A DNA stretch of 64,000 nt, taken from positions 62,001 through 126,000 of the forward strand of contig JAJEAN010000001.1 of the NCBI GenBank assembly GCA_022822725.1. The letters are read 5' to 3'. The position numbers and the translations under genes were made by a program. The DNA comes from Candidatus Latescibacterota bacterium. Its GTDB lineage: Bacteria > JAAXHH01. This document shows positions 10,659 through 46,815 of this stretch, piece by piece. Positions within the stretch are counted from its first letter, which is position 1; every line of letters starts with the position of its first letter. The notes under the pieces are model-generated. The model was not told the DNA's origin. It was given only the letters and a program-made list of their open reading frames with translations, and made no database searches.

Positions 10659-10744
10659 GGGGTGTCCGAACGATCGGAGGCGTCGAAGAGCGGTCGGTGT
10701 AAAACCCGAGAAAATGGTCACTTACCAGGCATTGAAATCTCACC

Positions 10745-10774: not shown

Positions 10775-10840
10775 GGGCATATGCGGTTTGCACGCGCACA
10801 TGGATTGTGGAATGACACAACTTGGGCTCTACAACAGTTT

Positions 10841-10858: not shown

Positions 10859-10885
10859 GACGCGTACCATGTCAATGGACATAAT
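10857..10885 (+). promoter_or_regulatory. Sigma70-like promoter of ahcY
   Basis: TTGACG (10857-10862), 17 bp, CATAAT (10880-10885). The predicted transcript starts near 10892, leaving a leader of about 100 nt before the ahcY ATG. With the MATE promoter and the inverted repeats this explains the 334-bp gap between the divergent genes. Confidence 0.7.
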
Positions 10886-10992
10886 GGCAGGTAACCACCC
10901 GGCCAGGGCTGAGTTCCGCGGAAAGGACGAAAAGTCTTGTCCAGCTGGAATACACCTGAGTGGCTTTCGACAGCATCCTGAACGGTGAATCA

Positions 10993-27240: not shown

Positions 27241-30200
27241 ATGGCCAGAACGACCATACAGATCAAGGGAGCCCGCGTTCACAACCTGAAGAACGTGAAC
27301 CTGGACCTGCCGAAAGACGCACTGATCTGCTTTACCGGCGTATCCGGTTCCGGCAAGTCCTCGCTGGCCTTCGATACGCTCTACGCCGAGGGTCAGCGGC
27401 GCTACGTCGAATCCCTTTCCGCCTACGCGAGGCAGTTCCTCGGCCAGATGCAGAAACCCGATGTCGACCGGATAACGGGACTGGCGCCCGCCATTTCCAT
27501 CGAACAGAAGGCTTCCGGTCTGAACCCGAGGTCCACGGTCGGGACGATTACCGAGATCTACGACTTCCTTCGCGTGCTCTTCGCTCGCGTGGGAACGCCT
27601 CACTGTACGAAATGCGGGGCCGAGATCGGGGCGCAGACGCTCGAACAGATCGTCGCGCGCATTCTGGCGCTCCCTATTGGAACCAGGCTGCTCGTCATGG
27701 CGCCGGTGATCCAGGGGCGCCGCGGCGAGTATCGGGACTTGTTCGAAGACCTGCGCCGGCAGGGCTATCTGCGCGCGCGGGTGAACGGCGAGGTCGTCGA
27801 CCTCTCCGAAGATCCCGATCTCGACCGCAACATGCGGCATACGATCGAGGTGGTGACGGACCGGCTCATTTTGCGGGAGAATATACGCACCCGGCTGGTC
27901 GAAGCCGTTGAAGGCGCGCTGCACCTGGGACAGGGCACCATGATGATCCAGCTGGAGGAAGACGGCCGGACCTCCGACCAGCTCTTCAGCACCCGGTACG
28001 CCTGCACCAGGTGTGATCTGAGTTACGAGGAACCCACGCCGCAACTGTTCTCCTTCAACAGTCCCCAGGGCATGTGCCCGAACTGCCACGGCCTGGGCAC
28101 CATGATGCGGATCGAGCCGCGGCTTATCATACCCGATCCGACGAAGTCCATCAACGAAGGAGCGATCGAACCCCTCGGAACGATCGCCAATCTCTGGAAA
28201 CGGCACTTCTACGAAGGGATCGCCCAGCACGTGGGATTCAGCCTGGACACGCCGTGGGAACAGCTGTCCGAAGAGGCGAGGCGGGTAGTGCTGTACGGGC
28301 TGGGTTACAAACGCATCCAATTTACCTTCCGGAACGGGAAGGGCGGCGAATGGACCCACAAGGACCGGTTCAACGGAGTCGTGAACGACCTTGAAAAACG
28401 GTACCATACGCTGAAGTCCCAGCGGCACAAGGCGGAACTCGAACGGTACATGGCCATCGGCAAATGCGACCAGTGCCAGGGCGAACGCCTGAAGCCCGAG
28501 GCGTTGTCCGTCACCCTCGGCGGCCGCTCCATCGCCGCGCTGTGCCGCCTGCCCGTCCTGGATATCCGCTCATTCTTCGGGAAACTGTCCCTGTCGGACG
28601 CCGAACGCCAGATCGGCGACGAAGCGCTCAAGGAGATCGTCGCGCGGCTCGACTTCCTGCTCAACGTGGGGCTCGAATACCTGACGCTGGAACGCACGGC
28701 GCCGACGCTTTCCGGCGGGGAGGCGCAGCGCATACGTCTCGCGAGCCAGATCGGCCGCGGGCTCGTCGGCGTGATGTACGTGCTCGACGAGCCGAGCATC
28801 GGCCTGCATCCCCGGGACAACCGGCGGCTGCTGGATACCCTGGGCCAGTTGCGGGACCAGGGCAATACGGTCATCATCGTCGAACACGATGAAGAGACCA
28901 TGTGGGCGTCCGACCACATCGTGGATTTCGGCCCGGGCGCCGGCGTCAACGGCGGGGAGATCGTGGCCGAGGGCCGTCCCGGCGCCGTGGCCGCCAGCAC
29001 GGCTTCGCTGACCGGGCAGTACCTTTGCGGGAAGAAGACGATCCCCGTTCCGGCGGCCCGCCGCGGCGTGGAGGACAGGTGGCTTACGATCCTGGGCGCA
29101 CGCCAGAACAACCTCAAGAACCTGGACGTCCGGCTGCCGGTGGGACGGTTCACGTGCGTCACGGGCGTGTCCGGTTCGGGCAAAAGCTCGCTGATCAACG
29201 ATATCCTGTACGCGGCCCTGGCCCGGTCGCTGAACAAGGCCGGCACCCAACCGGGCGAATTCGACGGCCTCAAGGGCGTGAGCCACCTGGATAAGGTCAT
29301 CAACATCGACCAGGCGCCCATCGGCCGCACGCCGAGATCGAACCCGGCAACCTACACGAAGGTCTTCGACGCGATCCGCGCACTCTTCGCCGAAACCCCG
29401 GAGGCCAGGCTGCGCGGCTACAAGCCCGGCCGGTTCAGCTTCAATGTGCGGGGCGGCCGGTGCGAGGCCTGCGAAGGCAACGGCGCGACGCGGGTGGAGA
29501 TGGATTTCCTGGCGGAAATGTGGGTGACCTGTCCGGTCTGCGAGGGCAGGCGGTTCGACCGGGAGACCCTGGAGGTGAAGTACAAGGGGCATTCCATTGC
29601 CGACGTACTCGGCCTGGACGTGCAGGAAGCGCTGAACCTCTTCGAACACGTTCCGTCCATCGCCCGGGTGCTCCGGACCCTTTACGACGTGGGTCTGGGG
29701 TATATCAAACTGGGCCAGCCCGCACCCACGCTGTCGGGCGGCGAGGCGCAGCGCATCAAGCTGGGGCGCGAACTGTGCAAGCGAAGCACGGGGCGGACCA
29801 TGTACGTGCTGGACGAACCGACGACCGGCCTGCACTTCGAAGACATCACCCACCTGCTCGCCGTGCTGAACGCCTTCGTGGACAAGGGCAACACCGTCGT
29901 CGTCATCGAGCACAACATCGACGTGATCAAGACGGCCGACTGGATCATCGACCTGGGGCCGGAGGGCGGAGAGGGGGGCGGACTCGTCATCGCCGAGGGT
30001 ACACCGGAGACCGTCGCGGAAGTCGCCGGATCGTCCACCGGACAGATCCTGGCCAAAGTGCTTAGGCCTCCCGGGTCTCAAGGGACTTTGCCGGCGACGC
30101 CGGTACTTCCGGAGTCATCGCGGACCGCCGGCGAGGACGACCGGACCGCCGGCGAGGACGACCGGACCACCGGCGAAAACGACCGGACCGCCGGCGAAAA

Positions 30201-33033: not shown

Positions 33034-34136
33034 ACTCCGGCTTTCCAGACCCTTTCCAGGCCTTCCAGCAACCTTCCGATCTTCAACGACGATTCCGTCT
33101 CGCCCCGGCAACTGTACCAGCACCGGTTGCAGTCGATCTTCCTGGAAACCTTCTTGAAATTGGCATATCCGGACTGTACGGGCAGTTCCGCGCAGGGCTT
33201 TATGTCACCGTCGGGGGTCAACTGCACCAGCCACTTGCCGGCCGCCGTGCAGGAGCGTGGTAGGGAATCCTGGAAATAGGCGGGGACGCGGCGCAGGTAC
33301 CAGGAGGAACTGACGATGTTACCCAGGCGGGACTTCTGGTAAATCAGATCCTCGATCACCGATTCCAGCCGTTCGGCGTGGGCGGGATCCACCAGGTGGG
33401 TTTCATTCCCGTTCTTGAAGTCGCTGTAGCAGCTGTAGGAAACCTTCGCGCCCATGGTTCGCGCCAGGTGCGCTATGGGTACGACGTGGTCCAGGTTCTC
33501 CCGCATGATCACCGTGTTGAAGACCACGTTGATCCCCCGGGCCGTCAACCGGGGCACGAGCGTGGAGATATGCTCGTACAGACCCTCGATGCCCCGTTCC
33601 TCGTCATGTTCGCGTCCGATGTAATTCAATGAAATCGAGATGTGGTCCAGGCCGGCATCCCACAGGGCCATGGCCTTTTCCTCGGTCAGAAGAGATCCGT
33701 GGGTGACCATGCCGATGTAGACGAATCCCAGGGATTCCTTGATGCGCCTGACCGCCTCGGGCAGTTGCTTGTTGATCGTGGGTTCCCCGCCGGTCAGGGT
33801 GACCGACAGGGGGTTCAGCTTCCGCAGTGCCGCCACGTAGTCGTAGTCGCCTAGCTTGCCCGATCGTTTCACCTTCCAGTAATCACAGAAATCGCAGGTG
33901 GCGTTGCAGAGGTAGGTCACCTCCATGTTCACCGTCATCGGCCCGCCCTTAAGCCGCACCCAGAGGTATTTGAGCAAGGCTCGAAGCTTCGTGGCGAGGG
34001 ACATGGGCCGCAACAACGCCCGGTCGTACCCGAGATATCCCGCGTCCGGCTGCAGTACGGGCGGCGCGGGTGCCAACGGTGCGGGCGCCGGGGGGACGAG
34101 CTCCGACGTGGAAGCGATCTGAATCTGTTCGGACAT
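33030..34136 (-). CDS. Radical SAM protein with C-terminal SPASM-like cysteines
   Basis: A 368-residue protein. CNATCDFC (Cys77, Cys81, Cys84) binds the SAM-cleaving [4Fe-4S] cluster, and TLTGGEPTIN is the GGEP motif. Six further cysteines lie in the last 75 residues: one each near RSCTAAG and IKPCAELP, and CNRCWYSCRGE. They look like a SPASM/twitch auxiliary-cluster domain. A Pro/Ala-rich stretch precedes the barrel (residues about 15-30). It is the last gene of the 46.7-33 kb minus-strand cluster, 10 bp after the phosphodiesterase gene, so it is almost certainly co-transcribed with it. The natural role may be modifying the lipid- or glycan-linked product of the cluster. Some B12-free relatives act in hopanoid or peptide maturation, but nothing here fixes the substrate. 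Confidence 0.85.
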   Translation of the reverse strand: MSEQIQIASTSELVPPAPAPLAPAPPVLQPDAGYLGYDRALLRPMSLATKLRALLKYLWVRLKGGPMTVNMEVTYLCNATCDFCDYWKVKRSGKLGDYDYVAALRKLNPLSVTLTGGEPTINKQLPEAVRRIKESLGFVYIGMVTHGSLLTEEKAMALWDAGLDHISISLNYIGREHDEERGIEGLYEHISTLVPRLTARGINVVFNTVIMRENLDHVVPIAHLARTMGAKVSYSCYSDFKNGNETHLVDPAHAERLESVIEDLIYQKSRLGNIVSSSWYLRRVPAYFQDSLPRSCTAAGKWLVQLTPDGDIKPCAELPVQSGYANFKKVSRKIDCNRCWYSCRGETESSLKIGRLLEGLERVWKAGV

Positions 34137-34146: not shown

Positions 34147-35589
34147 CTACGCCACCGCGCGTGTGGCGGCGGTGACCGAATCTCTGCCGTCTATGGTCCC
34201 TCTGACAGTACGTCCCGTCAGGTTCAGCATGGCGGGAAACACGTCCACGGTGCGGACGCATTCCGCCGCGATGTCCGAGTTCATCATCAGAGGTACGTGC
34301 ATATGGTCGCGATGCAGTGAACCGTGGGTCGACTTGTGCTCGGGATGTTCATGCCGGAATCTCAAATCGTAGCCGTTCCGGGCGCTGACGATCAGGTCTC
34401 CGGACCGCGGCGAACCGAATACGCGCAGCAGTTGGTAAGGCGCGTCGGGGTATTCCGTGTCGAACGTTGCGGAGAGCATCTGCTCATCGGACGCTTCGGC
34501 CGGCATGCCGCCGTAGCCGAATGGATCCTTGCCCTCGAGCACCCGGTAGGCGATTCCGCCGGGTATCTCCCTGATTTCACTGGTTCCCCGGCGTCCGCAG
34601 ACGATGACCGCGTCTTCCCGGGTCGCCGCCACCAGGTCCACCGCCTCCTGTTCGAGCAGGGCTTCTATGGGATCGGTCTGCCTCAATGTGCGGATTTCAT
34701 CGTATGTCGGCCTTTCCTCCCATGTCTCGCCCATTTTAAAATAGATATGCGCCATGCCGTTGCCTGAGACCATCGTTGCCGCGTCGCATCCACTGCGCAG
34801 GATCCGGGGATAGTACAGCGTATTGAATCCGATCTCGTCGAGAAAGGACCATAACTCGAAATGCGTGTGGGTGGCGGTCAGGCCATGATCGCTGGAGACC
34901 ACGAAAAGCGTGTCGTCCAGCCTGTTCAGCCGCTGAAGCCGCTCCGCCAGCCTGCCGAACCCCCGGTCGAATGCCCGGTAAGCCTCCAACGTGGCGTCCG
35001 AAAAAGGATCGTTGTAGTGGGAATATTCGTCCACCGCCGGGAATACGACCGACAGGAAATCAACGGCCTGGTCGACGGCCCGGTCGATGTACCTCCAGGC
35101 CGCGTCGTCCATGACCTGCCACCGGCCGGATAGATGTGCGTAATACAGGTACCAGTTCCTGGTCAGCAACGTCCGGTTTTCGAATAGGCCCAACCCCTTG
35201 TTGACCAGGCTGAACACGCCCGCCGGGCGCTCGAAGTATTCGAAGATGGTGTGAATCCCGTCCCGGAGATCGCTGTCGATATACAGACCACCCGGCCCCA
35301 CGTAACTGCGCGCCTGCCGGTAATGGGTGAGTCCCTCCGGCTGGGACCGGTCGAACCATCGGATGCCGGGGAGATTGCACGAACCGGGCGTACAGCCGGT
35401 CAAAAACGGCACATGGGCCGGACCGGTCGTGGACGGGAACGAGGTAACCGCTTTACGGTAGTCTCCCCGGTCGAGGATGTACCGCCGCAGGGACGGTAGT
35501 TCGCCGGTCTCGATCATTCTCCGCATGACGTCTTCGCGTGCGCCGTCGACGAGGAAAAAGATACACCGGTTGTAGGCCGTCGCCGCCAT
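34147..35589 (-). CDS. Alkaline-phosphatase-superfamily phosphodiesterase/phosphatase
   Basis: A 480-residue protein starting at the ATG at 35587-35589, with AGGAG 6 bp upstream. CIFFLVDGARED supplies the first metal aspartate and SFPSTTGPAHVPFLTG the nucleophile Thr. VFPAVDEYSHYN and VVSSDHGLTATHTHFE supply the other Asp/His metal ligands, as in type I phosphodiesterase/nucleotide pyrophosphatase proteins. There is no obvious signal peptide, so it is probably cytoplasmic. Related enzymes hydrolyse phosphodiesters or transfer phospho-head-groups, which fits a cluster containing two CDP-alcohol phosphotransferase fusions. A double AGTATACT palindrome lies 43 bp upstream. Confidence 0.85.
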   Translation of the reverse strand: MAATAYNRCIFFLVDGAREDVMRRMIETGELPSLRRYILDRGDYRKAVTSFPSTTGPAHVPFLTGCTPGSCNLPGIRWFDRSQPEGLTHYRQARSYVGPGGLYIDSDLRDGIHTIFEYFERPAGVFSLVNKGLGLFENRTLLTRNWYLYYAHLSGRWQVMDDAAWRYIDRAVDQAVDFLSVVFPAVDEYSHYNDPFSDATLEAYRAFDRGFGRLAERLQRLNRLDDTLFVVSSDHGLTATHTHFELWSFLDEIGFNTLYYPRILRSGCDAATMVSGNGMAHIYFKMGETWEERPTYDEIRTLRQTDPIEALLEQEAVDLVAATREDAVIVCGRRGTSEIREIPGGIAYRVLEGKDPFGYGGMPAEASDEQMLSATFDTEYPDAPYQLLRVFGSPRSGDLIVSARNGYDLRFRHEHPEHKSTHGSLHRDHMHVPLMMNSDIAAECVRTVDVFPAMLNLTGRTVRGTIDGRDSVTAATRAVA

Positions 35590-35631
35590 TCCGTCTCCTA
35601 AATATATAGGACATTGATACATTACTCAATT

Positions 35632-35669: not shown

Positions 35670-36269
35670 CTATTCGATTTCAAGGGTTTTCGCGCGCAGG
35701 ATGTTAAGCAACTCTTCGTAGGAGGTCCTGCTGATCTTCTTGTAGAATGCGTCCCGGTTGGCCAGCGCGACGCTTGCTCCGTCGATGACCATGTCATAGA
35801 TGAGCCATTCCCCTTCATTGAGCTCCATCTTGTAGTCGACGAGCGTTTTGGTGCCCTTGTACCATACCGTCGTTCTCACCAGCGACCGGCTGCCCCGGGT
35901 CTCTTCCCCGTCGTAGGTCGTCCTGTCCGACCGCTTGCGCAGCTTGTCCAGGGCCCGGTTTTCGGTCCACCTGCGCAGGACCGAAACGAACTCCTCCCGC
36001 TCGGTGTCCGTCCGCTCCCGCCAGTGCCGGCCGAGTGAAATGCGGCTGTGCCGTTCGAAATCGAACCCGGAGACGACGGCCTCGCGCACCAGGCTGTCCT
36101 GCGCCGCTTCGGTGGCGACCCCGTCCAGGGCGCGTAGCGTGGCATCCCGCTGCTTCAACGTCTCGATGGGCGAGTATTCCTGCGCGTAACTCCCGAAAGC
36201 CAGCAGCGACACCGTCACCCAGGCGGCAACGCGTCCCAGGCGGCGGACCGCACGGCGATTCGCATGCAT
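35670..36269 (-). CDS. MlaC/Ttg2D-like periplasmic phospholipid-binding protein
   Basis: A 199-residue protein from the ATG at 36267-36269, with GGAGGTGGG just upstream; an ATG seven codons earlier lacks this spacing. The N-terminus has a signal peptide ending AFGSYAQ. The mature part fits the MlaC fold: REAVVSGFDFERHSRISLG, WRERTDTEREEFVSVLRRW, VWYKGTKTLVDYKMELNEG and EWLIYDMVIDGAS. MlaC carries phospholipids between inner and outer membranes. No mlaD, mlaE or mlaF gene is adjacent, so this copy probably serves a lipid transport step specific to the cluster. Confidence 0.87.
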   Translation of the reverse strand: MHANRRAVRRLGRVAAWVTVSLLAFGSYAQEYSPIETLKQRDATLRALDGVATEAAQDSLVREAVVSGFDFERHSRISLGRHWRERTDTEREEFVSVLRRWTENRALDKLRKRSDRTTYDGEETRGSRSLVRTTVWYKGTKTLVDYKMELNEGEWLIYDMVIDGASVALANRDAFYKKISRTSYEELLNILRAKTLEIE

Positions 36270-36295
36270 TTCCCACCTCCATCCTTGCATTCATA

Positions 36296-36412
36296 CGGCC
36301 TGATCGACCGGATTGGCCCGATCGCACGAACCGGCCGGGTTATCCGGATAGCCCTTTTCGCAGGGACCGGCCTGATCGACCCAATTGGCCCGATCGCACG
36401 AACCGGCCGGGT
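36296..36412. repeat. Two 45-bp direct repeats abutting the DUF3047 stop codon
   Basis: 36296-36340 and 36368-36412 differ at two bases (period 72). The second copy ends at 36412, the first base (plus-strand order) of the DUF3047 stop codon, so the repeat again starts at a gene's 3' end. It fills the gap to the MlaC-like gene. Confidence 0.85.
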
Positions 36413-37425
36413 CAGGACCCGGTGTCCCGGCGATGAACTACGAAGTCGTCATAATCCCCCTTCGAATCCGATCCCGTCGCGTTTCCATCTGTCAGAATGC
36501 CGATCCCAACGGCCTTCCGCGGCGGCTTTTTCCCGAAGATCCGTACATAGTCCGCGTAAACGTTTACCGACTCCTCGACCCACTGTCCGAGCTTCTCCTC
36601 CCCGCTCTGGAGCACGATCACATGGGGGCGGCCGATGCCTTCACGGCGATAGTGGGTGCCGACCGGCACGGTGGTGCTCCAGACGTATTTCAGGGTCCTG
36701 GGCACGCCGATGAAGTTCTGATCAAGGACCACGTACACGGCCACGGAACTGTCATTCCTTGAACGGATGCGTTCATCACCGCCTTCGGGCAGGACCGCCG
36801 CCCTCCAACGCCAGGACAGCACCGGATATTCGTTCGCATCCCAATCACTGACTTGCTTGCGTATGATGATGGAGGAACCGTCGTCTGCCGCGTGGAGATA
36901 ACGGTTGCCGTTTTCCTCCCGGATCGTGTACAGATTGCGGGCCAGGTCGTCATCGCCCCGCCAGGCTTTCCAGGTCAGCGGGAAACCGCCCAGGTCCGAA
37001 TTGTCGAAGTCATCGATTGTGATTGACTTTGGATGATCATCGCCCCGCTGGGGAGGGCCCGCAGCATCCGCATGGTCCGCCCACGCGACGCCTGGTACGA
37101 AAGTGCCGGTTTGAGGCCAGGCTGACCAGGCCGACCAGGCTGACCAGGCCGACCGTGACTCCCGGAACTCCCGGTGCGACGACGCCTGTGTCTCCGTGTC
37201 CTTGCGAAGGACGGAAGTCGGATCGATAAACGCGGCGGAGATCAGCAGTACGGCGCCTGCCAGCAAACCGAACATCCCGCCCGATTGCGTGCCACGCGCC
37301 CTGCCCACCGGCATGGTACGCACCTTGCCTGCTTGTGTGCCTCGCGACGGGCCTGTTTGCCAAACACGTGGCCACCATTTCGACAAACCACGCCCCATGC
37401 CCGTCCTCGCAGGCCTATGTTTCAT
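36412..37425 (-). CDS. DUF3047 domain protein, probably exported
   Basis: A 337-residue protein. The DUF3047 domain covers about residues 130-330: IDDFDNSDLGGFPLTW, LSWRWRAAVLPEGGDE, SVAVYVVLDQ, KYVWSTTVPVGTHY and a final GDYDDFVV. It is a carbohydrate-binding-like beta-sandwich domain of unknown function. A hydrophobic segment (MFGLLAGAVLLISAAFIDP, about residues 51-69) is the likely signal or anchor. GGAGG is ideally placed before the ATG at 37425, but starts at 37398 and 37314 are also possible, so the N-terminal 50 residues are uncertain. SAWSAWSAWSAW at about 92-103 comes from a 9-bp tandem repeat. It sits between the TolC and MlaC-like genes in the envelope cluster. Confidence 0.77.
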   Translation of the reverse strand: MKHRPARTGMGRGLSKWWPRVWQTGPSRGTQAGKVRTMPVGRARGTQSGGMFGLLAGAVLLISAAFIDPTSVLRKDTETQASSHREFRESRSAWSAWSAWSAWPQTGTFVPGVAWADHADAAGPPQRGDDHPKSITIDDFDNSDLGGFPLTWKAWRGDDDLARNLYTIREENGNRYLHAADDGSSIIIRKQVSDWDANEYPVLSWRWRAAVLPEGGDERIRSRNDSSVAVYVVLDQNFIGVPRTLKYVWSTTVPVGTHYRREGIGRPHVIVLQSGEEKLGQWVEESVNVYADYVRIFGKKPPRKAVGIGILTDGNATGSDSKGDYDDFVVHRRDTGS

Positions 37426-37500: not shown

Positions 37501-38946
37501 TCAACGCCATGCACTACCAATCCCGTCGCCAGTCACGTGATCGAGTTCGGCCAGCGAAACCCGGTACTGGTACAGCGCCTGCCGGTGCGCATGCTGCATC
37601 TTCGCATGCGCGGTAAAGGCGTCCAGCAGTTCCGAACTGTCTCCGGTAACGTCGAAACCCAGTTGGGCCGATGTCAACCATCCCCTGGCGGAACGAAGCG
37701 CCCGGTCGCTGTTGACCACGTTGGTACGAGCCTCGATTACGTCGCGGTAGGTCTGCTCCACCTGCAGCGCGACCGCGCCTATCGCCTGGGATTCCCTGCT
37801 CACCAGTGCTTCCAGCTCCACTTTCCGTGCAAGGTACTTGGCGCGCGTAAGGCCGAAATTGAAATTCTGGCGCAAAGTAATCACGGCACCGCCGCGAAGG
37901 AAATTGAATTCGTCCCTGAGAAATGGGTTGTCGAGCTCCGGCCGGTGTGGCGCGATGCCCCACTGGAGGGACCCCGCCAGGGCGATCTGGGGGTAGAAGT
38001 CGCTCCTGGCTACCTTCAACAGCGCCCGGCGGGCCAGCACGCCCGCCCTCAGCTGCCGGATGTCGTACCGCCGGTTCTTTGCCCGTTCTATGTAGACGTC
38101 CAGTTCTTCGAAGGCGTCCGGTTCTTCGAGGTCCGCCGATTCGGTTCCCGCGGCCGTATGGACGATATCGAAATCGCTGGAGCGATCGATTTCGAGTATG
38201 GTCTTCAACGCCGTCTTGCCCATTTCGATCGACTTCTCGGCCCGCGCCCGGCTCTGGAGCACTTCGAATTCAAAGACATCGATTCTCAACAGGTCGTTCT
38301 GGCCGACGTCTTCCGAATCCTCCTCGATCATCTCGTTTACGCGGTCACGGGCCTCCTGGACCTTTTCTTCGCTTTCCAGGATGATGTCCCTGAGTTCCCT
38401 GGCCAGCACGAGCCCGTAGAACAGCTTCTTCACCTGGAACGCCACGTCGATCTTCCGGGATTCAACGGCCGCTTCGCCCGCTTCGAGACCGTATTCGGCC
38501 GCCTTCTTCGCGTTACTGAGCTTTCCGAAGGTGTATATAGGCTGGACCAGTTCGATCTGCGTGCGAGAGAAAACGCCAAGATCGGTCAGGTCGCTCCGGA
38601 TGGTCTCGATCTTTTCCGTATCGCCCTCTATGCCCGGCGCGGGACCGAAGATATTGGTCCACTCCAGCCGAGGGGTGATGCCGGCGAATCTCGCCTCGCT
38701 CAACCTGGCTTCCAGGCCTTCGACGGCAATGACCGCCTGTTCGATGTCCGGACTGACCCGCAACGCGCGGTCCACGCACTGGTCCAGCGTCATCCGGACA
38801 ACCGGTACAGCCGGGACGGCCGGGTCAACCTGATCAGCCTGGGCGGTCCGGACGGGTCCACTTGGGGCCTGCGCGAATACCGGCCCCGTGAATACCGGTC
38901 CCGCGATCAGCGATCCCGCCAGGATCTGGGCCAGAAATCGAATCAC
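37501..38946 (-). CDS. TolC-family outer-membrane efflux protein
   Basis: A 481-residue protein from a GTG at 38944-38946 with GGGAG 5 bp upstream; an upstream GTG would add 11 charged residues before the signal peptide. The signal ends PVFTGPVFA, its last part itself a short repeat. The mature protein has two related long-helical halves with TolC features: MTLDQCVDRALRVSPDIEQA, IYTFGKLSNAKKAAEYGLEAG (split by a turn), QLRAGVLARRALLKVARSDFYPQIALAGSL (likewise) and LVSRESQAIGAVALQVEQTY. It would form the outer-membrane exit duct. No RND or MFP partner is encoded nearby, so it is presumably fed by the cluster's own transport step. Confidence 0.9.
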   Translation of the reverse strand: MIRFLAQILAGSLIAGPVFTGPVFAQAPSGPVRTAQADQVDPAVPAVPVVRMTLDQCVDRALRVSPDIEQAVIAVEGLEARLSEARFAGITPRLEWTNIFGPAPGIEGDTEKIETIRSDLTDLGVFSRTQIELVQPIYTFGKLSNAKKAAEYGLEAGEAAVESRKIDVAFQVKKLFYGLVLARELRDIILESEEKVQEARDRVNEMIEEDSEDVGQNDLLRIDVFEFEVLQSRARAEKSIEMGKTALKTILEIDRSSDFDIVHTAAGTESADLEEPDAFEELDVYIERAKNRRYDIRQLRAGVLARRALLKVARSDFYPQIALAGSLQWGIAPHRPELDNPFLRDEFNFLRGGAVITLRQNFNFGLTRAKYLARKVELEALVSRESQAIGAVALQVEQTYRDVIEARTNVVNSDRALRSARGWLTSAQLGFDVTGDSSELLDAFTAHAKMQHAHRQALYQYRVSLAELDHVTGDGIGSAWR

Positions 38947-39195
38947 GTTGTCTCCCGCTTCTCGCAGACGTCGTCTCACCTTGAAGGTCGACGCGCCGAA
39001 AATGCAAGCACACCGATATCGACGACGCGCCGTAATCGCCGGACCTCAGTGATCACCGACGCGCCGTATTCGCCGGCTCGCAATACGAATCAACCCAGCG
39101 TAATCGCAAACGCACGCATGTTCAAGTTTATTAGACGCAACTATCCACTTATTGATCCAACAAATAGTGATGGCTGATCCATCTACGCAGCGGAA

Positions 39196-40470
39196 TCAAG
39201 ACCTGTCCGCCGACGACGGTTGCGACAGCAGCCAGATCGCCCGCGTCCAATGGAACGCCGCCGTTATCACCGTCCATATGGCCACACAGGTGAACGCTTC
39301 CTCCAGCATCCCGACCGCCAAACCCGCGAGCAGCAGCAGGACGTTTGTGTTTCGCCGGGCGCCGATACGGCGAAAGAAGCGGTCCACGGGCGCGTAGTCA
39401 AACAGTTCTTTACCTTGCCTGGACTTGAACATCCCTGTGGCCGCCTTGTCAAGCAGATAGAACAACGTGATCACCGTGGCGAGCACAAAGGGACCGGCCA
39501 CCTCGCCGCCGGCACTGAGCATCCACCCCAATGCCCAGTACCAGGTCAGTTCCCAGACCACGTCCAGGATGTGTTCGTAACGGTCCCCGAACCGGGTGCA
39601 TCGCACCGTCACGCGGGCCAGCTTGCCGTCTACGCCGTCCAGTACCCCCACGATGAATGCGATGACCAGTCCGGCGGCCAGGTATCCCGTTCCCATCTGC
39701 CCCGCGGCCAGGAGCCCGGTAGTCAGGAAGGCGAGCAGTATGGAGAAAGTGGTAACATGGTTCGGTGTCACGGAACTGGGCGAAATCCATTTCGTAAGCA
39801 GGTTCTCCAGGGGCGGATGGATGAATTCAGCCGGAAAATCCAGCGTACCCTTTTGCGCGGCGTCGGTAAGCAGGGCTTCCGCCCGGTGGATCTTCCGGTC
39901 CGAATCGACGACCAGCCACCAGGGGGGGAGGCTTCGGCGAAGATCCACGATATAGGGATCCATTTCGCGCAGGTCGAATACCGGACAGGTCGACTCCTGT
40001 GCCGAGTCCAGCGCAGACCAGAGCGACTCGGAGCCGGACCAGGACGCCGTGAGCCCTGCGAGGAAGTCGCCGTTGGTCACCAGCAGCCTGCAGGATTCCC
40101 TGGCCGCCGAGTCCACGGCTCGCTGGATCGATCCGCCGTCGATCAAGGCCCTCAATACCCGCGGGTCGTAAAGGTGTCCGGCGTCCATGACCAGTGCCTT
40201 TTCGTCCTCCCCGGGCAGCCAGCGGGCGGGGCTTTCGTCCGTCCGCACGTAATCGACGGCGGCCAGTTCCCGGTACCAGCGATCGTCGAATCCGTCGCCC
40301 CGTACGTCCGGTCCCTGCCCGGACGAAGGTCCGACAACCGTGACCTGCCGTGCCCCCAGGGAAGCGAATACCCGGAGGTGCCGCTCCAGCAGCGAAATGC
40401 CGTAAATCGACCGGCCGGCGCCGGCCGCCGAGGCTTCCGTATCCGCGAACAGGACTACGCTGAAATTCAT
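39196..40470 (-). CDS. Degenerate nucleotidyltransferase fused to CDP-alcohol phosphotransferase
   Basis: A 424-residue protein from the ATG at 40468-40470. Residues 1-210 have a nucleotidyltransferase-like order of strands (VVLFADTEAS...QVTVVGPS...KALVMDAGHLYDP) but lack the GGxGxR and PKP catalytic motifs, so this half is probably inactive or binds only. Residues 225-424 are membrane helices with the CDP-alcohol signature: D281-G-K-L-A-R286, eight residues, G295, three residues, E299, three residues, D303. The third signature Asp is Glu299, an unusual change. The enzyme family joins a CDP-activated alcohol to a phospho-acceptor. It pairs with the complete fusion at 42886-44337, suggesting two different acceptor steps. 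Confidence 0.8.
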   Translation of the reverse strand: MNFSVVLFADTEASAAGAGRSIYGISLLERHLRVFASLGARQVTVVGPSSGQGPDVRGDGFDDRWYRELAAVDYVRTDESPARWLPGEDEKALVMDAGHLYDPRVLRALIDGGSIQRAVDSAARESCRLLVTNGDFLAGLTASWSGSESLWSALDSAQESTCPVFDLREMDPYIVDLRRSLPPWWLVVDSDRKIHRAEALLTDAAQKGTLDFPAEFIHPPLENLLTKWISPSSVTPNHVTTFSILLAFLTTGLLAAGQMGTGYLAAGLVIAFIVGVLDGVDGKLARVTVRCTRFGDRYEHILDVVWELTWYWALGWMLSAGGEVAGPFVLATVITLFYLLDKAATGMFKSRQGKELFDYAPVDRFFRRIGARRNTNVLLLLAGLAVGMLEEAFTCVAIWTVITAAFHWTRAIWLLSQPSSADRS

Positions 40471-40565
40471 TGCCAATGGTTCTCCATATAAATGAAGCCC
40501 GGAGTCTGGGCTTCTCTTTCTTTCCCGGTGCGCGACCATTCTTTTTCAGGAAAGAACATCTGGCT

Positions 40566-42119
40566 TCATGGTCCGCCCGGTCCGCCTGGTCCGCCTGGTC
40601 CGCCTGGTCTGCGCAGGCGCCGAAGGGCGATCCGGTCATCCTCTTCCAACCCCAGAAGACCCAGTACGCCCAGGTAGGCGGCCAGGAAGATCGTGGGCAG
40701 CGCGGCCATGCGCAGCCACGGGAATTCCGGCGCGTAGACGCCCGCCAGATAAGCGCATGCGAAGGCGGGTACTGCCGCGGCACAGGGCTTCAGGATGCGC
40801 CAGGACAGGGGAAGGATCCGGAACAGATGATACACTTCGGCCAGCCGGATCAGCGTCAACAGCCCAAAGGCCGCCAGCGTTCCCAGGGCGGCGCCCAGGA
40901 TACCCAGGGCTGGTATCAGCCAAAGGTTCAGGACAAAATTTACCGCCACGACCGCGACCGTATTCACGAGATTCAGCCAGGGCCGGCCCGACATGATGAG
41001 CACAGTATCGCCCGAACCCATGGCGGAATAGACGACCTGGCTCATGGCCAGGACGACCATCGTCATGAATCCCGCGACGAATTCGGCTCCAAAGAGTCCG
41101 AGCAGTTCATTTCCGACCAGTGACACCACGCAGAGGAACGCCAGGCCTATGGTCAGCACCCACCGGGTGACCAGCCGCAGATTGAGCTCAAGCCGCCGCA
41201 GGTCGTTGCGATGATTCAGTTCGGCCACGATGGGGCTGAAAACGGGGTCGAACCACTGGCGGACTTTCTTGGTCACCAGGGCGATCTCAACCGCGATTAC
41301 GTAAATGCCCACCTGTGCGGCCGGCAGAAAGTAGCCGACCATGAGCACATCCAGCCGGATCATGAACATATAGACCAGTTCATAGCCCATGACCGGCAGC
41401 GAGAAGCGGGTCAGCGGGGTGACGGCCCGCAGCGCACGCAGGTGTGCGAGGCAGGCCCGCCAGGAATAGAACCTGGTGAATATGTAAACGGCGTATAGCA
41501 GGCCGCAGGCCAGCGCGGCCAGGTGGGCGGCGGCGATACCGTAGGTGCGCCAGCCCGCGTAGAACAGGACACAGGCCGCCCCGAACAACACGAGCGGCTC
41601 GACGGCGCCCCGGACCATGGCGTCGTGCTTCATGACCTTGTGCGCCCGGGTGACGCCCAGGATGATCTGGGTCAGGGCGATGAGCGGCAGGCCGATCGCC
41701 AGCAGTCGCAGCATGCCGGTGAGACGGGGCTTATCGAGCAGGCCGTCCGCCAGCGCGGCCGCACCGGCGTAGAGCGCGGCGCCGATCCCCGCGCTCAGCA
41801 GCAGACCCACGCCCAGGGCCTGGGCGATGGTCCGGTGGATGGCCTCCGTTTCCCCGTCCTCGCGCATGCGCGGGATGAAATTGACCAGTCCCTTGTCCAG
41901 CGAGAACTGGCCGACCTTGGACACGAGGTCCACGATGGTCCACCCGAGCATGTACAGCCCGAAGATCTCGGCACCGAACAGGCGCGTAAGGACGATGAAC
42001 GATACGGACTTGATCAGCCGCGCTACCGTTCCGATGAAATTGACGGCCGCGCCCCGGGCGATCGTCGATGCGTCGGATGGGGACCGGACCGGATCCGGCC
42101 GCTCCTGGGTACGCGTCAT
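40566..42119 (-). CDS. Polysaccharide/lipid-linked flippase, MOP superfamily
   Basis: A 517-residue integral membrane protein from the ATG at 42117-42119, overlapping the methyltransferase stop as ATGA. It has about 12-14 hydrophobic helices and the N-terminal pattern of Wzx/RfbX-type oligosaccharide flippases (ARGAAVNFIGTVARLIKSVS...LTRLFGAEIFGLYML). Such proteins move lipid-linked sugars or lipid intermediates across the inner membrane. The position between two CDP-alcohol phosphotransferase fusions makes the cluster's own product the obvious cargo. The C-terminus is RRPGGPGGPGGPGGP, coded by 9-bp tandem units that run to the stop codon. Confidence 0.87.
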   Translation of the reverse strand: MTRTQERPDPVRSPSDASTIARGAAVNFIGTVARLIKSVSFIVLTRLFGAEIFGLYMLGWTIVDLVSKVGQFSLDKGLVNFIPRMREDGETEAIHRTIAQALGVGLLLSAGIGAALYAGAAALADGLLDKPRLTGMLRLLAIGLPLIALTQIILGVTRAHKVMKHDAMVRGAVEPLVLFGAACVLFYAGWRTYGIAAAHLAALACGLLYAVYIFTRFYSWRACLAHLRALRAVTPLTRFSLPVMGYELVYMFMIRLDVLMVGYFLPAAQVGIYVIAVEIALVTKKVRQWFDPVFSPIVAELNHRNDLRRLELNLRLVTRWVLTIGLAFLCVVSLVGNELLGLFGAEFVAGFMTMVVLAMSQVVYSAMGSGDTVLIMSGRPWLNLVNTVAVVAVNFVLNLWLIPALGILGAALGTLAAFGLLTLIRLAEVYHLFRILPLSWRILKPCAAAVPAFACAYLAGVYAPEFPWLRMAALPTIFLAAYLGVLGLLGLEEDDRIALRRLRRPGGPGGPGGPGGP

Positions 42120-42889
42120 GATGGGGGATGCACCGGTCCGGAGGTCATCCTGTCCGCTTCGATCAACAGGGTCCAACCCCGTTGGTTCCCGGTGAACAGG
42201 TTAAAGACCGCGGATACCAACCTGCCGGCCGTTACCAGCCCCAACCGGATCACCGCCGCCGGAACCGCGTGCATGCGCTCCGTGGCGTAGCTCAGTCTGA
42301 TCAACGCCAGGTCCAGCCGGGAACGAAGCAGGTATCGGTGTCGGGCCAGCCTGAATCCACAGGACTCCAGCAACGAGCCGACCGAGGGGTGCGTGTAGAA
42401 CTGCAGGACGCTGTGGCGTTTCCGGTGCGCGTCGCGCCACGGCTCGCTGATCTCCTCGAGGCTCAGGCTGTCCAGGGTCAACAGGATGCGTCCCCCGGGC
42501 CGCAACACGCGCCACATCTCGCGGAGCGTCTGCCGGTCGTCCGGCAGGTGCTCGAAGACACACAGGCTCATGACCGTGTCGAACTGCCCGGAGCGAAGGG
42601 GGAACGCGTCCGAATGGGCGCAGACGAAACCCGTGAAGGGCGTCTTGTGGTGGACTCGCGCGCGTCGCAACTGCTTCCGGTCCAGGTCGAATCCGTATAC
42701 CAGGGCGCCCCGCAGGGCAACCCGGTAGTCATAGGTCCCTTCTCCGCAGCCGATATCGAGAATACGCTCGCCCTTGCGCGGCTTCAGCCAGCGTAACGCG
42801 GGAACCGTTTCCTGGGTCCTGCGGAAGTTGAAGTCCTTCCTGAGCCGGAGGGCGAAGAGTCCCCTTGCACGGTGCAGCAACCCGCTCAT
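42116..42889 (-). CDS. Class I SAM-dependent methyltransferase of the envelope cluster
   Basis: A 257-residue protein from the ATG at 42887-42889. The ATG overlaps the stop of the upstream fusion gene by 4 bp (ATGA), and its own stop overlaps the flippase start in the same way. The open frame further upstream to 43738 is only a shadow. RILDIGCGEGTYDYRVA is SAM motif I, GFDLDRKQL motif II, TVMSLCVFEHLPDD motif post-I, and LRPGGRILLTLDSL motif III. The C-terminal third (LDLALIRLSYATERMHAVPAAVIRLGLV, with a break) is hydrophobic and may lie on the membrane. It probably methylates the lipid-linked or phospho-alcohol intermediate. Confidence 0.88.
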   Translation of the reverse strand: MSGLLHRARGLFALRLRKDFNFRRTQETVPALRWLKPRKGERILDIGCGEGTYDYRVALRGALVYGFDLDRKQLRRARVHHKTPFTGFVCAHSDAFPLRSGQFDTVMSLCVFEHLPDDRQTLREMWRVLRPGGRILLTLDSLSLEEISEPWRDAHRKRHSVLQFYTHPSVGSLLESCGFRLARHRYLLRSRLDLALIRLSYATERMHAVPAAVIRLGLVTAGRLVSAVFNLFTGNQRGWTLLIEADRMTSGPVHPPS

Positions 42890-44337
42890 GAGCTCAAATC
42901 CCCGGCCACCGTCCGGTCCCGCGCCAGCAGCCTCTTCGTCGAAACACATATGGCCAGTCCCATGGCCAGGCCGCCGGCCGTAACGGTCCAGAACATCCAG
43001 CTCAGCAGGTCGAGGGCGGCGAAACACAGCAGCAGCATGGTAAAGAAATCTCTTTTGGCCATCATCCTGAACAGGTTGAGCATTCTGGCGGCGAGGCGGC
43101 GCCGCCGCCCGGCGGCGTGCTCTCCGAAGGCCCGGTTGAACCGGACCAGGCTGCCGCTCCCGCCGGTCTGCAGCAGATAGTAGTACATCACGAGCATCGA
43201 AGCGGCCACCACGGCGACGGATCCCAGTCCGAGAAACCGGATTTCCGTTTCCCCGGAGCCGCCTGCGTAGGCCCAGACCACGGCCGCGAAGAATGCCAGG
43301 TAGGTCAGGTTGTCCGTGATGGTGTCGAGCCACGAACCGTATTTCGATTCGCGGTAGGTCAGCACCGCCACCTCCCCGTCGCATCCGTCGAGGATGGACG
43401 AGAACTGGAACAGCAACGCACCCAGCAGCACCGGCCAGTAGGTGCCGTCCAGCACGAACCACGCCCCGGCCAGGCCGGTGAGGAATGTGACCAGGGTCAC
43501 CATGTTGGGGGTGACCGGCGTCCGGACCAGCCATCGGCTGATGCGGGTCGAAACCGGCCGGTTGATATACCGGGATACCCAGCCATCGGTGGGTTTTACG
43601 AGGCGTCCCAGCAGGGCCTTTTCGCCCTGGGCCAGCATCTCGGGCGTATCCACGTCCTGCCAGTAGCCGTCGCCCACGTCGAAGGCCCGCATCCGCCCTT
43701 CCGCGGCAAGCGCACGGATGCCGTCGCTCAACGCACAACCCTCCGGTCCGTCCACGGTATCGAGGGCGTCGAACAGGGCCGGCGTACAGAGGAACATGCC
43801 GGTGTCGACCGCGTTGTACGCTTGCAGAGCCTTGTCGATGCGCACCACTTTATCCCCGCGCACTTCGACCTTGGTCGCGTCGTCCACGTCGTACACGCGG
43901 TCGATTTTCCGGTCGATGGCGAGCAGGCACTCGTCCTCGGCCACCGGTTCCTCGAGCAGACGCTCCAGCGTCCGCTGCTCGAAGAGGTGATCGGCCATGA
44001 GCAGCACGAACGGTTCGGCCAGGCGGGAACGGGCGGCCAGGGCGGAAACCCCGTTGGGCAGATGCCACCGTTCGTTGTGCACCCATTCGATTTCGAGGGC
44101 GTCCAGGCCGGGATCGTTTGAAAGGACCTCGTGAAATCGGTCCGCCTCGTACCCCGTTACGATCACGAATCGCGTTACGCCGGCCCGAGCGGCCGTCAAA
44201 ATGATCCGCTTGATCAACGGCAACCCGCATAACTTCATCAGGGGTTTGGGCACCGGGCCGGTGACCGCCTGCAGGCGCACACCCGCGCCGCCGGCGATGA
44301 TGAGCGCCGGGGCCGCTCTTCTGTTCTGATGATCCAT
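42886..44337 (-). CDS. Nucleotidyltransferase/CDP-alcohol phosphotransferase fusion, IPCT/DIPPS-like
   Basis: A 483-residue two-domain protein. Residues 8-240 are an intact nucleotidyltransferase: IIAGGAGVRL, PVPKPLMKL, LLMADHLFE, and DVDTPEM near the end. Residues 270-480 are a membrane CDP-alcohol phosphotransferase: SSILDGCDGEVA, then G334, D338 and D342. The order and the DGCDGE motif match bifunctional CTP:inositol-1-phosphate cytidylyltransferase/di-myo-inositol-phosphate-phosphate synthases of thermophiles. The normally invariant Arg of the DGxxAR signature is Val325. The likely reaction is making CDP-inositol (or a similar CDP-alcohol) and transferring it to a phospho-acceptor. No inositol-phosphate synthase gene lies in the window. 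It starts 40 bp after the M56 gene. Confidence 0.83.
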   Translation of the reverse strand: MDHQNRRAAPALIIAGGAGVRLQAVTGPVPKPLMKLCGLPLIKRIILTAARAGVTRFVIVTGYEADRFHEVLSNDPGLDALEIEWVHNERWHLPNGVSALAARSRLAEPFVLLMADHLFEQRTLERLLEEPVAEDECLLAIDRKIDRVYDVDDATKVEVRGDKVVRIDKALQAYNAVDTGMFLCTPALFDALDTVDGPEGCALSDGIRALAAEGRMRAFDVGDGYWQDVDTPEMLAQGEKALLGRLVKPTDGWVSRYINRPVSTRISRWLVRTPVTPNMVTLVTFLTGLAGAWFVLDGTYWPVLLGALLFQFSSILDGCDGEVAVLTYRESKYGSWLDTITDNLTYLAFFAAVVWAYAGGSGETEIRFLGLGSVAVVAASMLVMYYYLLQTGGSGSLVRFNRAFGEHAAGRRRRLAARMLNLFRMMAKRDFFTMLLLCFAALDLLSWMFWTVTAGGLAMGLAICVSTKRLLARDRTVAGDLSS

Positions 44338-44377: not shown

Positions 44378-46264
44378 CTAGAAGATCGCGGAAAAGCCCA
44401 GCGTCATCTCCGGGTAAGGACGAGAGATGACATCCAGTTCCTTCCGGTAGGATGCCTGCATGACCACGGCGACGTGCCGCTCCCAGAAGTAACGCAGCCC
44501 GACCCCGGCGTCGATCATGGTCATGTTCCGGTTCTGAGGCCGAATCTCCAGGCCGGCGCCCCATCCGAAAAAAGGTGTGAATGAATCGCCCGGAACGAGC
44601 AGATTGTACCGGTAGAAGGCACCGATCCGGGTGATCCGTTCGGCCTGTTCTTCCCCTGCGGTCTCAAGTATCGTCTCCTGCGCCGACGAGGTCTCGAAAC
44701 CGGCCAGCCTCCGGGCTCGAAGGAGGGACCCGCCGTACGGGGCGCCGGAAGGCTGCTGTGTATCTTCAAAGGCTTCCGTGTCGTTGGGCTGCCGGATGGA
44801 AAACACGCCGCCGAACTGGTGGGTCGGTGTAATGAAATAGCCGGCGCTCAGGGAGACCGTGCCGGGATCGAACAGCTCGTTGCCGGTCCGGCCCACGCCC
44901 TGCACCTCGATACGTCCCTGCCTGGCGTGGTTCCCCGTCGATAGCGTCCGATCCGGGATGACCGGGGCGGCGGCATGTCCGAGCACGGCGGGGTTGATCC
45001 GTTCGCGCTCCGTGGATTCGAGCATCCCGTCCCGGGGAAGTACAACCGGTTTCGTCATCATGGCGGCCATGGATCTGCGCGGCGCGGGCCGACCGTCTAC
45101 CATGGACCGGCGATCGACTTCCCTTTCAGGCGGCAGGGATTGGTCTGCGACCAACGCAACCTGCGTCGCCGGATTGGATCCTTCACGATGTTGTGCACCG
45201 GACGCCGAATCAATCCGGAAGGAAACCGCCGGTTCGGCAGGCATGCCCGTCCGCGGCGGAACGGGCGCGTCTCGGGGGACCTCGACCGCCGGACGCAACA
45301 GGGGCATGACCGCGATCAGCGAGCAGATACCGGCGGCCAGCAGCGGGAAGAAGGCGCGGTCCTTCCGGCTCGCGGTCGGACCGAGCACGTCCCGGATACG
45401 CTGGGCCGCCATGGAGGCCGACTGCGCCAGTTCGAGGGCGGCCTGCCATTGCGTCCGGATCCTGCCCGTGGCTACCTTCAACAGAGTGGAAGCATAGCAC
45501 TCCGGCTGCCTGGAAACACGGACGACGTCCGCGTCGCAGGCCCGCTCCGCCTCGATCCCGGCTCGGTGCGCGGCGTACCAGACCGCCGGGTGGAAGAAAA
45601 AGAAGAACCTGCTGAACTGGACCAGGTAGACCGTAAGGTGATCCCGCCGGGCATAGTGGGCCAGTTCATGAAGCAGGACCTGTCTCAGTTCCGCGCTGGA
45701 AAGCTCCAGGATGCACCAGGAGGGGATCACGACGGTGGGACGCCCGGCGGCGATCAGGACGGGCACTTCGAACTCATCGGAGACCCGCAGGGCCACGTTG
45801 CGCTTCAAGCCCGATTCGGCCAGGCAGCGGTCGAATAACGCGCTTACCCGGGGGACGGCGACCGGGACCGACCGCCGCCGTCTACGGGTCATGGTGATGA
45901 CCGATGAAACTATGCGGTACAGGCCGAATCCGGCGAAGCCCATCCATACCAGACCCGCGACGGTGTAGACTCCGGATGCCGGGGCGTTGTGACCGCCCGC
46001 GGCGGACACGCCGTGGCTCGCCATCGACGCCCACGGTATTTCGAACGGTCCATGCCAGGGCAGCACGAGGGTCAATAGCGGTTTGGCCAGAACCAGCAGC
46101 CAGAGGAAGTGCCGTATCCTGGCTGGGCATCCCGGGTTCACGAACAGCAGGATCCATACCAGCACACCCAGCAGCAACGCTTCAAGGCTCGGTAGCCACA
46201 ACAGGCCTGCGACCTCCCGGCCGAACCGCTCGAAGAAGCCTACGGCGTAAACGGTATCAAGCAT
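44378..46264 (-). CDS. M56 (BlaR1-type) membrane metallopeptidase fused to a beta-barrel-like domain
   Basis: A 628-residue protein. Residues 1-325 are an M56 peptidase: hydrophobic segments near 22-42, 50-70, 98-121 and 306-325, HELAH (His199, Glu200, His203) and the downstream EAERACDAD that supplies the third zinc ligand. In BlaR1/MecR1 such a domain triggers loss of the BlaI/MecI repressor when a signal binds outside. Here the outer part is not a penicillin-binding domain. After a polar linker of about 120 residues, residues 446-628 are alternating strands (TVSLSAGYFI, TRIGAFYRYNLL, FFGWGAGLEI, MIDAGVGLRYFW, AVVMQASYR) ending in TLGFSAIF, like an outer-membrane barrel. Its start overlaps the repressor gene by 8 bp. 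Confidence 0.82.
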   Translation of the reverse strand: MLDTVYAVGFFERFGREVAGLLWLPSLEALLLGVLVWILLFVNPGCPARIRHFLWLLVLAKPLLTLVLPWHGPFEIPWASMASHGVSAAGGHNAPASGVYTVAGLVWMGFAGFGLYRIVSSVITMTRRRRRSVPVAVPRVSALFDRCLAESGLKRNVALRVSDEFEVPVLIAAGRPTVVIPSWCILELSSAELRQVLLHELAHYARRDHLTVYLVQFSRFFFFFHPAVWYAAHRAGIEAERACDADVVRVSRQPECYASTLLKVATGRIRTQWQAALELAQSASMAAQRIRDVLGPTASRKDRAFFPLLAAGICSLIAVMPLLRPAVEVPRDAPVPPRTGMPAEPAVSFRIDSASGAQHREGSNPATQVALVADQSLPPEREVDRRSMVDGRPAPRRSMAAMMTKPVVLPRDGMLESTERERINPAVLGHAAAPVIPDRTLSTGNHARQGRIEVQGVGRTGNELFDPGTVSLSAGYFITPTHQFGGVFSIRQPNDTEAFEDTQQPSGAPYGGSLLRARRLAGFETSSAQETILETAGEEQAERITRIGAFYRYNLLVPGDSFTPFFGWGAGLEIRPQNRNMTMIDAGVGLRYFWERHVAVVMQASYRKELDVISRPYPEMTLGFSAIF

Positions 46265-46736
46265 CCGTTACCTCCGGGTTCGATTCCGACGCGTCCGACG
46301 ACTCCGAGGCGTCCTGCGATTCCGACGCGTCCGACGACTCCGACGCGTCCGACGACTCCGCGGCTATCCGGTCCAGCAGTTTGCGCAGGCTTTCGGCTTC
46401 TTCCGCGGTCAAGGCATCCGATTCGATCAGGTGCAGCACCAGGGACTGCGATGATCCGGCGAACAACTTGTCCACGACGGCCCGGACGGTCTCCCGGCGC
46501 ACGCCCTCGGGTTTCAGGATGGCGGTGTAGACATAGGCCCGGCCTTCGCGGGTATACCGGACGACGCCTTTCTGCGTGAGTATGGTCAGGACCGTTTGAA
46601 CCGTGGTATACGCCAGGGGACGCTGGTTTCGAAGCGAATCGACAATCTGGCGCACCGTCGCCCGACCCAGCCGCCAGACGACGTTCATGATGTCGATTTC
46701 CAGGTCCGTCAAAGACGAAAGTTTCTTTCTCGCCAT
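46257..46736 (-). CDS. BlaI/MecI/CopY-family transcriptional repressor
   Basis: A 159-residue protein from the ATG at 46734-46736, with GGGGA 9 bp upstream; an ATG three codons earlier and a GTG further up are less well placed. LTDLEIDIMNVVWRLGRATV and LAYTTVQTVLTILTQKGVV form the winged helix typical of BlaI, followed by the dimerisation helices. The last 25 residues are SDASES repeats from tandem DNA. BlaI proteins dimerise on palindromes and are inactivated when an M56 partner is triggered. The M56 partner overlaps this gene by 8 bp. An AT-rich inverted repeat lies about 80 bp upstream. Confidence 0.9.
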   Translation of the reverse strand: MARKKLSSLTDLEIDIMNVVWRLGRATVRQIVDSLRNQRPLAYTTVQTVLTILTQKGVVRYTREGRAYVYTAILKPEGVRRETVRAVVDKLFAGSSQSLVLHLIESDALTAEEAESLRKLLDRIAAESSDASESSDASESQDASESSDASESNPEVTDA

Positions 46737-46815
46737 CCGATCCATTCCCCGGTTTGCCACTCCGATGCTTCGGAGCGCAAGGTGTTCGCACGCTGCGGTT
46801 GCGGCCGAAGATTTC

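Follow-up and report, generated by a model that had tools for sequence, protein, structure and literature searches.

Two fusion proteins at one locus

The window analysed here is a stretch of 64,000 nucleotides from a Candidatus Latescibacterota bacterium (contig JAJEAN010000001.1 of assembly GCA_022822725.1). Its positions 39196-44337 hold four tightly packed genes on the minus strand, which from 44337 downwards encode protein A, a methyltransferase, a flippase and protein B. The minus-strand cluster runs on past B to 33030 with TolC-like, DUF3047, MlaC/HpnM-like, phosphodiesterase and radical SAM genes (Table 1). In an earlier note on this DNA, A and B were both described as fusions of a nucleotidyltransferase-like domain with a CDP-alcohol phosphotransferase (CDP-AP) domain. 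The open reading frames (ORFs) on the minus strand and the Pfam, profile and model matches agree with this description. Loci and genomes used for comparison are designated below by L and G numbers.

Protein A has Pfam matches above the curated cut-offs to PF12804 (2.3e-12), PF00483 (1.5e-10) and PF01066 (31.3 bits, cut-off 22). As claimed before, it keeps the nucleotidyltransferase motifs, GGAGVR and PKP, and has Val325 at the place of the signature Arg: both can be read directly in the sequence. The CDP-AP signature, DGCDGEVAV...GSWLDTITD, retains all four metal-binding Asp and both Gly. The best NCBIfam model for A is NF041135 (IPCT/DIPPS), matched at 2.4e-70 over the whole protein, with 237.6 bits against an equivalog cut-off of 580; A stays under the cut-off of every specific NCBIfam model. 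PDB sequences matched were 4mnd (1.7e-51, 443 residues aligned), 4jd0 (9.5e-25) and 2xme (8.4e-22). The predicted structure of A alone (pLDDT 87.2), a check proposed in the earlier note, matches 4mnd with Z 33.6 over 406 residues and 32% identity in the structural alignment, the Thermotoga maritima IPCT 4jd0 with Z 28.9, and 2xme with Z 27.4. A therefore has the two motifs and the fold of a cytidylyltransferase, whereas B is without both motifs.

In protein B, Pfam found PF01066 alone (33.9 bits, cut-off 22), with no Pfam match in the N-terminal half, and the score against NF041135 was 58.8 bits (cut-off 580). The B-family profile matches 4mnd from one end to the other (7.4e-26). The model of B (pLDDT 88.6, pTM 0.86, six long transmembrane-like helices) matches AF2299 over both domains, with Z 26.4 and 331 of 341 chain residues aligned, and nucleotidyltransferases with Z of about 15-17. 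Because of the profile alignment and the two-domain match to AF2299, the first half of B can be recognised as a decayed nucleotidyltransferase. The loss of GGxGxR and PKP and the presence of Glu299 at the third signature Asp were read correctly in the earlier note, the signature in the window being DGVDGKLAR...GDRYEHILD. Glu299 (codon 39574-39576) is Glu322 of the longer ORF 39196-40539. We place the conserved start of B at Met24 of that ORF (40470), since its relatives start there and residues 1-19 were modelled at pLDDT <50. Neither protein carries the full eight-residue signature D1xxD2G1xxAR...G2xxxD3xxxD4, A having Val at the Arg and B having Glu at D3.

Two families and their signature substitutions

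A maximum-likelihood tree of 67 CDP-AP domains, rooted at the midpoint and with two outgroup rows on very long branches, separates the two proteins. The 29 B rows form one clade (support 99/99), and 32 A rows, DIPPS-like enzymes and three Asgard outliers form a second (95/95), in which A belongs to a bacterial subclade that neighbours the DIPPS-like rows without including them (87/79). A motif filter had left out L052, L029, the second CDP-AP of L115, and L175 and L178 from the window's own genome. The Asgard outliers (L170, L172, L173) have DGA..AR and D-S instead of DGK and E-H, and L172 and L173 have a cytidylyltransferase-like neighbour. On the evidence of this tree, A and B are members of two old families found in bacteria and archaea. 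The view that they are diverged paralogues with distinct steps thus holds as far as homologous fusions with different jobs are concerned; the idea of complementary losses within a recent pair does not fit two separate clades.

B-type enzymes occur in at least 10 bacterial and archaeal phyla. The bacteria are Latescibacterota (including records titled Gemmatimonadetes and Zixiibacteriota), Verrucomicrobiota, Calditrichota, Chloroflexota, Acidobacteriota, Myxococcota, Thermodesulfobacteriota, Nitrospirota, Pseudomonadota and Aerophobetes, and the archaea are Heimdall-, Loki-, Bathy-, Brock-, Alti- and Geothermarchaea and Thermoprotei. Altiarchaeales and two Bathyarchaeota loci encode the B-type domain as a fusion with an intact nucleotidyltransferase, and an Anaerolineales protein (L118:1-2034, 678 residues) carries an intact cytidylyltransferase, then a decayed one, then a B-type transferase in one chain. 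These intact fusions and this tandem protein make the decay of the first domain of B look derived. Decay of the first domain is seen in many A-type relatives too, and a separate cytidylyltransferase is then encoded alongside.

The Glu-His pair of B is not a search artefact, because the family scan queried two other stretches of the protein. Of the 79 rows scored, the three Asgard outliers belong to the A/DIPPS clade, which leaves 76 B rows (L174, without an ORF, was dropped); they are not independent, seven being close relatives of the window protein. At the third Asp, 72 of the 76 have Glu and four have Asp; His follows in 74, the signature Arg is retained in all 76 and the fourth Asp in 73. 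The family thus conserves D1, D2, G1, Arg, G2, His and mostly D4. All 15 B genes of the window's order have Glu at the third Asp. The fourth signature Asp is held to be the catalytic base; it is replaced by Gly or Thr, with the His kept, in L112, L116 and L146 (two Calditrichota rows and Kordiimonas).

At the Arg position of A, Val is found in 12/12 genomes of the genus and Lys in the four other A genes of the order (G012-G015). Among the 32 A-type rows, 20 have Arg, seven Lys, three Val, one Ile and one Asn, and the A-type tree requires at least three separate changes, in several lineages. Glu stands at the third Asp in three of these rows, and His follows that position in none. The residue after the G1 glycine also separates the families, being Glu in 31/32 A rows and Lys in 29/29 B rows of the tree set. 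Purifying selection acts on all four domains of A and B (omega 0.09-0.35 in comparisons with genomes of the same genus; 0.17-0.32 for the membrane domain of A within the genus). These ranges leave out the pairs with the more distant L013, L014, L043 and L044, where part of the synonymous sites is saturated (omega 0.08-0.47 or undefined).

The substitutions thus recur in homologues (Glu in 72/76 B rows, a residue other than Arg in 12/32 A-type rows), which was the point on which the earlier note had wanted an alignment. It had also named two ways of being wrong. One was random loss, suggested by homologues that keep all signature residues; such residues are indeed kept in part of each family (Arg in 20/32, Asp in 4/76), but the departures are bound to clades and fixed in the genus. 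Separate clades, fixation and purifying selection rule out the random decay of two recent duplicates. The other, a misaligned motif, is ruled out by alignments that leave both substitutions where they were. As far as such comparisons tell, both substitutions are inherited within their clades, and the other features place A and B in the PF01066 superfamily. B need not be weakened by its substitution, since Glu can still bind metal.

Gene context and a proposed CDP-inositol route

Gene context points to CDP-inositol. The gene order INO1 (inositol-phosphate synthase), cytidylyltransferase, B is found in two Aerophobetes loci (L138, L144), and the order cytidylyltransferase, B, INO1 in two Lokiarchaeota loci (L155, L158). 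In Altiarchaeales (L133), INO1 lies beside an intact cytidylyltransferase fused to a B-type domain, and in Kordiimonas marina (L146, B-type gene at 9899-11341) it is at most 6 kb from B. According to Pfam, which was also run on L138/L061, INO1 adjoins A-type genes in G020 and G036. A separate IPCT-like ORF (at least 90 bits) is present on 29 B loci, two of these sequences having helped to build the profile. INO1 scored above its cut-off in 48 of 50 B-carrying genomes (from 50 of the 62 candidate loci) versus 13 of 42 unrelated bacteria without B (Fisher 2e-11, uncorrected for kinship). For bacteria only, the figures are 28/30 versus 13/42 (Fisher 5e-8, again uncorrected). The window genome and all 12 genomes of its genus encode INO1. 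Its place beside B and the cytidylyltransferase, together with this co-occurrence, makes inositol phosphate the likely substrate.

On the lipid side, the cluster includes flippase, MlaC/HpnM-like and TolC genes, both in the window and elsewhere in its order. Calditrichota clusters combine B with flippase, MMPL, DUF3047, TolC and MlaC genes, and in Kordiimonas B adjoins an MMPL gene. In nine Verrucomicrobia/Acidobacteria loci (L115, L120, L122, L124, L125, L130, L131, L137 and L142), the surroundings of B include a synthase of the serine-palmitoyltransferase/BioF type together with genes for a GNAT protein and an additional CDP-AP, a set that we take to resemble bacterial ceramide synthesis genes. 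These loci, and the similar B- or A-type loci L224 and L225, are possible inositol-phosphoceramide loci. Ceramide as a general acceptor was rejected: it is unsupported in the window's order because the GNAT marker is missing from all 16 of its genomes.

We propose that A and B are partners in a CDP-inositol pathway, in which A charges inositol phosphate and B transfers phosphoinositol to a lipid, and we give this reading about an even chance of being right. INO1, encoded elsewhere in the genome, would supply inositol phosphate, which the intact N-terminal domain of A would convert with CTP into CDP-inositol. B would keep its decayed nucleotidyltransferase domain as a scaffold alone, its charging activity being lost, and its membrane domain would pass phosphoinositol from CDP-inositol to a lipid hydroxyl. 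Here Glu299 would bind metal in place of the third Asp, and His300 would help to deprotonate the lipid hydroxyl, a role already suggested for the His of eukaryotic choline/ethanolamine phosphotransferases. A would probably use its own membrane domain for another kind of transfer, the acceptor being either soluble or a molecule that carries inositol already, and may need no Arg for it. Modification and export of the lipid would fall to the products of the methyltransferase, flippase, MlaC-like and TolC genes. That one protein charges and the other only transfers, as suggested in the earlier note, is the simplest division of labour, since the charging domain is intact in A and decayed in B.

The nearest solved relatives of A, IPCT/DIPPS and IPCT enzymes, speak for this pathway, and several points weigh against it. 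Activity is known for no family member. INO1 of the window genome lies apart from the A/B cluster, and the same genome has a PIP-synthase-like CDP-AP (L178:1402-2013; NF045883 142 bits, cut-off 170) that, from its sequence, could be a rival user of the INO1 product. The lipid genes could serve another pathway sharing the operon, and the GNAT marker is absent, as said, from the window's order. The model of B has six transmembrane helices, versus about ten in eukaryotic lipid-acceptor enzymes (PMC4634129, PMC10182977). The Glu after G2 that pairs with the His in CHPT1 is Asp in B and is not conserved in the B family, so that B does not carry the extended motif G2ExxD3HxxD4 (PMC10182977), D3 also being mostly Glu.

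It is unlikely, in our view, that Val325 leaves the membrane domain of A dead, so that A charges and anchors only and B carries out the single transfer, perhaps in complex with A. MjPSS lost some or all of its activity with every CDP-AP motif mutation tested, and its Arg49, whose counterpart is present in B and not in A, compensates the CDP phosphates (PMC8633023). However, the domain of A keeps four metal Asp and both Gly under purifying selection, and the occurrence of Lys, Ile and Asn in relatives of other phyla indicates that the Arg position is relaxed rather than killed. Still less probable is the synthesis of soluble di-myo-inositol phosphate, as in hyperthermophiles, by A as a full IPCT/DIPPS, with B as an auxiliary or regulatory copy. 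The end-to-end alignment of A with 4mnd and its best NCBIfam model would agree with this, as would a six-helix architecture suited to soluble acceptors (PMC4634129). Yet the score of A is far from the NF041135 cut-off, its signature Arg is gone and it groups beside the DIPPS-like rows, while the neighbours are lipid-transport genes and the catalytic residues of B are conserved. Least probable of all is that the activated headgroup is another phosphate (e.g. glycerate, choline or aminoethylphosphonate): the fold is common to PntC, LicC, IspD and CpgD-type cytidylyltransferases (PMC12275187) and A is under the cut-off of all specific models, but in several phyla INO1 has B and the cytidylyltransferase as neighbours, its co-occurrence with B is near-universal, and the best sequence matches are inositol-phosphate enzymes.

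The CDP-inositol pathway could be extended, as a possible if rather doubtful generalisation, to the whole B family. Its members would be unrecognised prokaryotic His-assisted headgroup transferases of the Kennedy type, which use CDP-inositol to make inositol phospholipids; their hosts would be many phyla of uncultivated bacteria and also archaea, Asgard lineages among them. A charging enzyme would usually be encoded next door, and an A-type transferase would often join in, giving two successive phosphoinositol additions; the decayed domain may receive CDP-inositol from the charging partner. If the pathway is real, DG[VL]DGK..AR...[E/D]H..D next to INO1 or a cytidylyltransferase becomes a marker of the CDP-inositol route, which would then be predicted in Latescibacterota, Verrucomicrobiota, Calditrichota, Chloroflexota, Myxococcota, Acidobacteriota, Aerophobetes and several archaeal phyla. 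Inositol phospholipids have been described as relatively rare in bacteria (PMC9246714). With the A and B families, the roles of the Arg, the third Asp and the extra His in the CDP-AP superfamily could also be probed on natural variants.

Table 1. Features of the A/B gene cluster (window coordinates)
Feature	Position	Strand	Remarks
Protein A, whole gene	42886-44337	-	483 residues; N-terminal nucleotidyltransferase and C-terminal CDP-AP
Protein A, N-terminal nucleotidyltransferase domain (residues 1-245)	43603-44337	-	CTP:inositol-1-phosphate cytidylyltransferase-like, motifs intact
Protein A, C-terminal CDP-AP domain (residues 246-483)	42886-43602	-	PF01066 3.2e-07; signature D..DGE.AV...G...D...D
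Protein A, Val325 codon at signature Arg position	43363-43365	-	sequence inspection, alignment
SAM-dependent methyltransferase (Methyltransf_11)	42116-42895	-	overlaps 3' end of A gene
MOP-superfamily flippase (Polysacc_synt)	40566-42119	-	profile matches
Protein B, gene from conserved start	39196-40470	-	decayed nucleotidyltransferase and CDP-AP
Protein B, decayed nucleotidyltransferase domain	39850-40470	-	GGxGxR and PKP lost; annotated ORF begins 40539
Protein B, CDP-AP domain	39196-39849	-	PF01066 4.9e-08; signature DG.DGK.AR...G..[.]EH..D
Protein B, Glu299-His300 codons (322-323 of long ORF)	39571-39576	-	Glu at third signature Asp, then His
TolC-like outer membrane protein	37501-38979	-	Pfam; same cluster throughout genus
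DUF3047 protein	36412-37425	-	same cluster; also in Calditrichota clusters
MlaC/HpnM-like periplasmic lipid carrier	35670-36290	-	PF05494 5.1e-28; HpnM 3e-13; same cluster
Type I phosphodiesterase/pyrophosphatase-family protein	34147-35622	-	same cluster in genus and G013
Radical SAM protein	33030-34136	-	same cluster

In G029, the gene immediately upstream of A encodes a homologue of the radical SAM protein (234 bits); the phylum-level search around G029 covered one genome. Directly upstream of A, at 44378-46760, a BlaR1/BlaI-type sensor-repressor pair is encoded, whose position is kept in the genus, G012 and G013; it may regulate the A/B cluster. Beyond the other end of the cluster, the UvrA ORF (27241-33033, 1930 residues) contains two complete UvrA copies in tandem, with the Walker and 'LSAYARQFL' segments each present twice.

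Comparison with known systems

The two-domain architecture of A and B is that of the IPCT/DIPPS of Archaeoglobus fulgidus (PDB 4mnd, NF041135). A differs from it by the missing signature Arg and its distance from the equivalog cut-off, B by its decayed first domain and a signature with DGK and Glu-His. AF2299 (PDB 4o6m, 4o6n, 4q7c), whose function is unsettled, is the closest fold to B, which has both domains in the same arrangement, and a precedent for joining a cytidylyltransferase-like N-terminal domain to a CDP-AP (PMC4634129). It shares 18% identity with B, and its signature, DGCDGE...WLDGVLD, is without DGK and without the His. Our literature searches, whose coverage misses most subscription journals, returned no description of the B family, the Glu-His signature or the A/B pairing. 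The family and the pairing thus appear uncharacterised, whereas this type of pathway is already known.

Two features of B, DGK.AR and the His behind the third acidic residue, recur in cholinephosphotransferase 1 and CEPT1 (profile match 3.7e-08), and Glu299-His300 of B aligns with D-H of cholinephosphotransferase 1. In the eukaryotic choline/ethanolamine phosphotransferases this His has been proposed as a base, and its loss nearly abolishes CHPT1 activity (PMC10182977, PMC10156783). Unlike B, these enzymes have Asp at D3 and Glu directly after G2, and no cytidylyltransferase-like domain. No eukaryotic CDP-AP structure was among the 50 matches listed in either of two structure searches, a result that leaves room for a likeness. 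If DGK and the His are shared by descent with the eukaryotic enzymes, the B family would be relevant to how the eukaryotic Kennedy pathway arose.

Rhodothermus marinus is said, in work of Jorge, Borges and Santos from 2015, to synthesise inositol phospholipids in a CDP-inositol-dependent manner, from this donor to a lipid acceptor. No Rhodothermus locus was among the 77 loci of the B-family scan. A CDP-inositol lipid pathway has also been proposed in Bacteroides and Prevotella, in which INO1, a cytidylyltransferase and a CDP-AP are clustered (PMC9246714). Both systems resemble the proposed A/B route, as far as their descriptions go, in leading from CDP-inositol to a lipid acceptor; in the available parts of the sources, pairing with a decayed-domain fusion is described for neither. 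Finally, PIP synthases (PgsA1, RsPIPS) have in common with A and B the CDP-AP fold and, as predicted here, an inositol lipid product. They differ in that the lipid is activated, as CDP-diacylglycerol, rather than the inositol, and in having no cytidylyltransferase domain.

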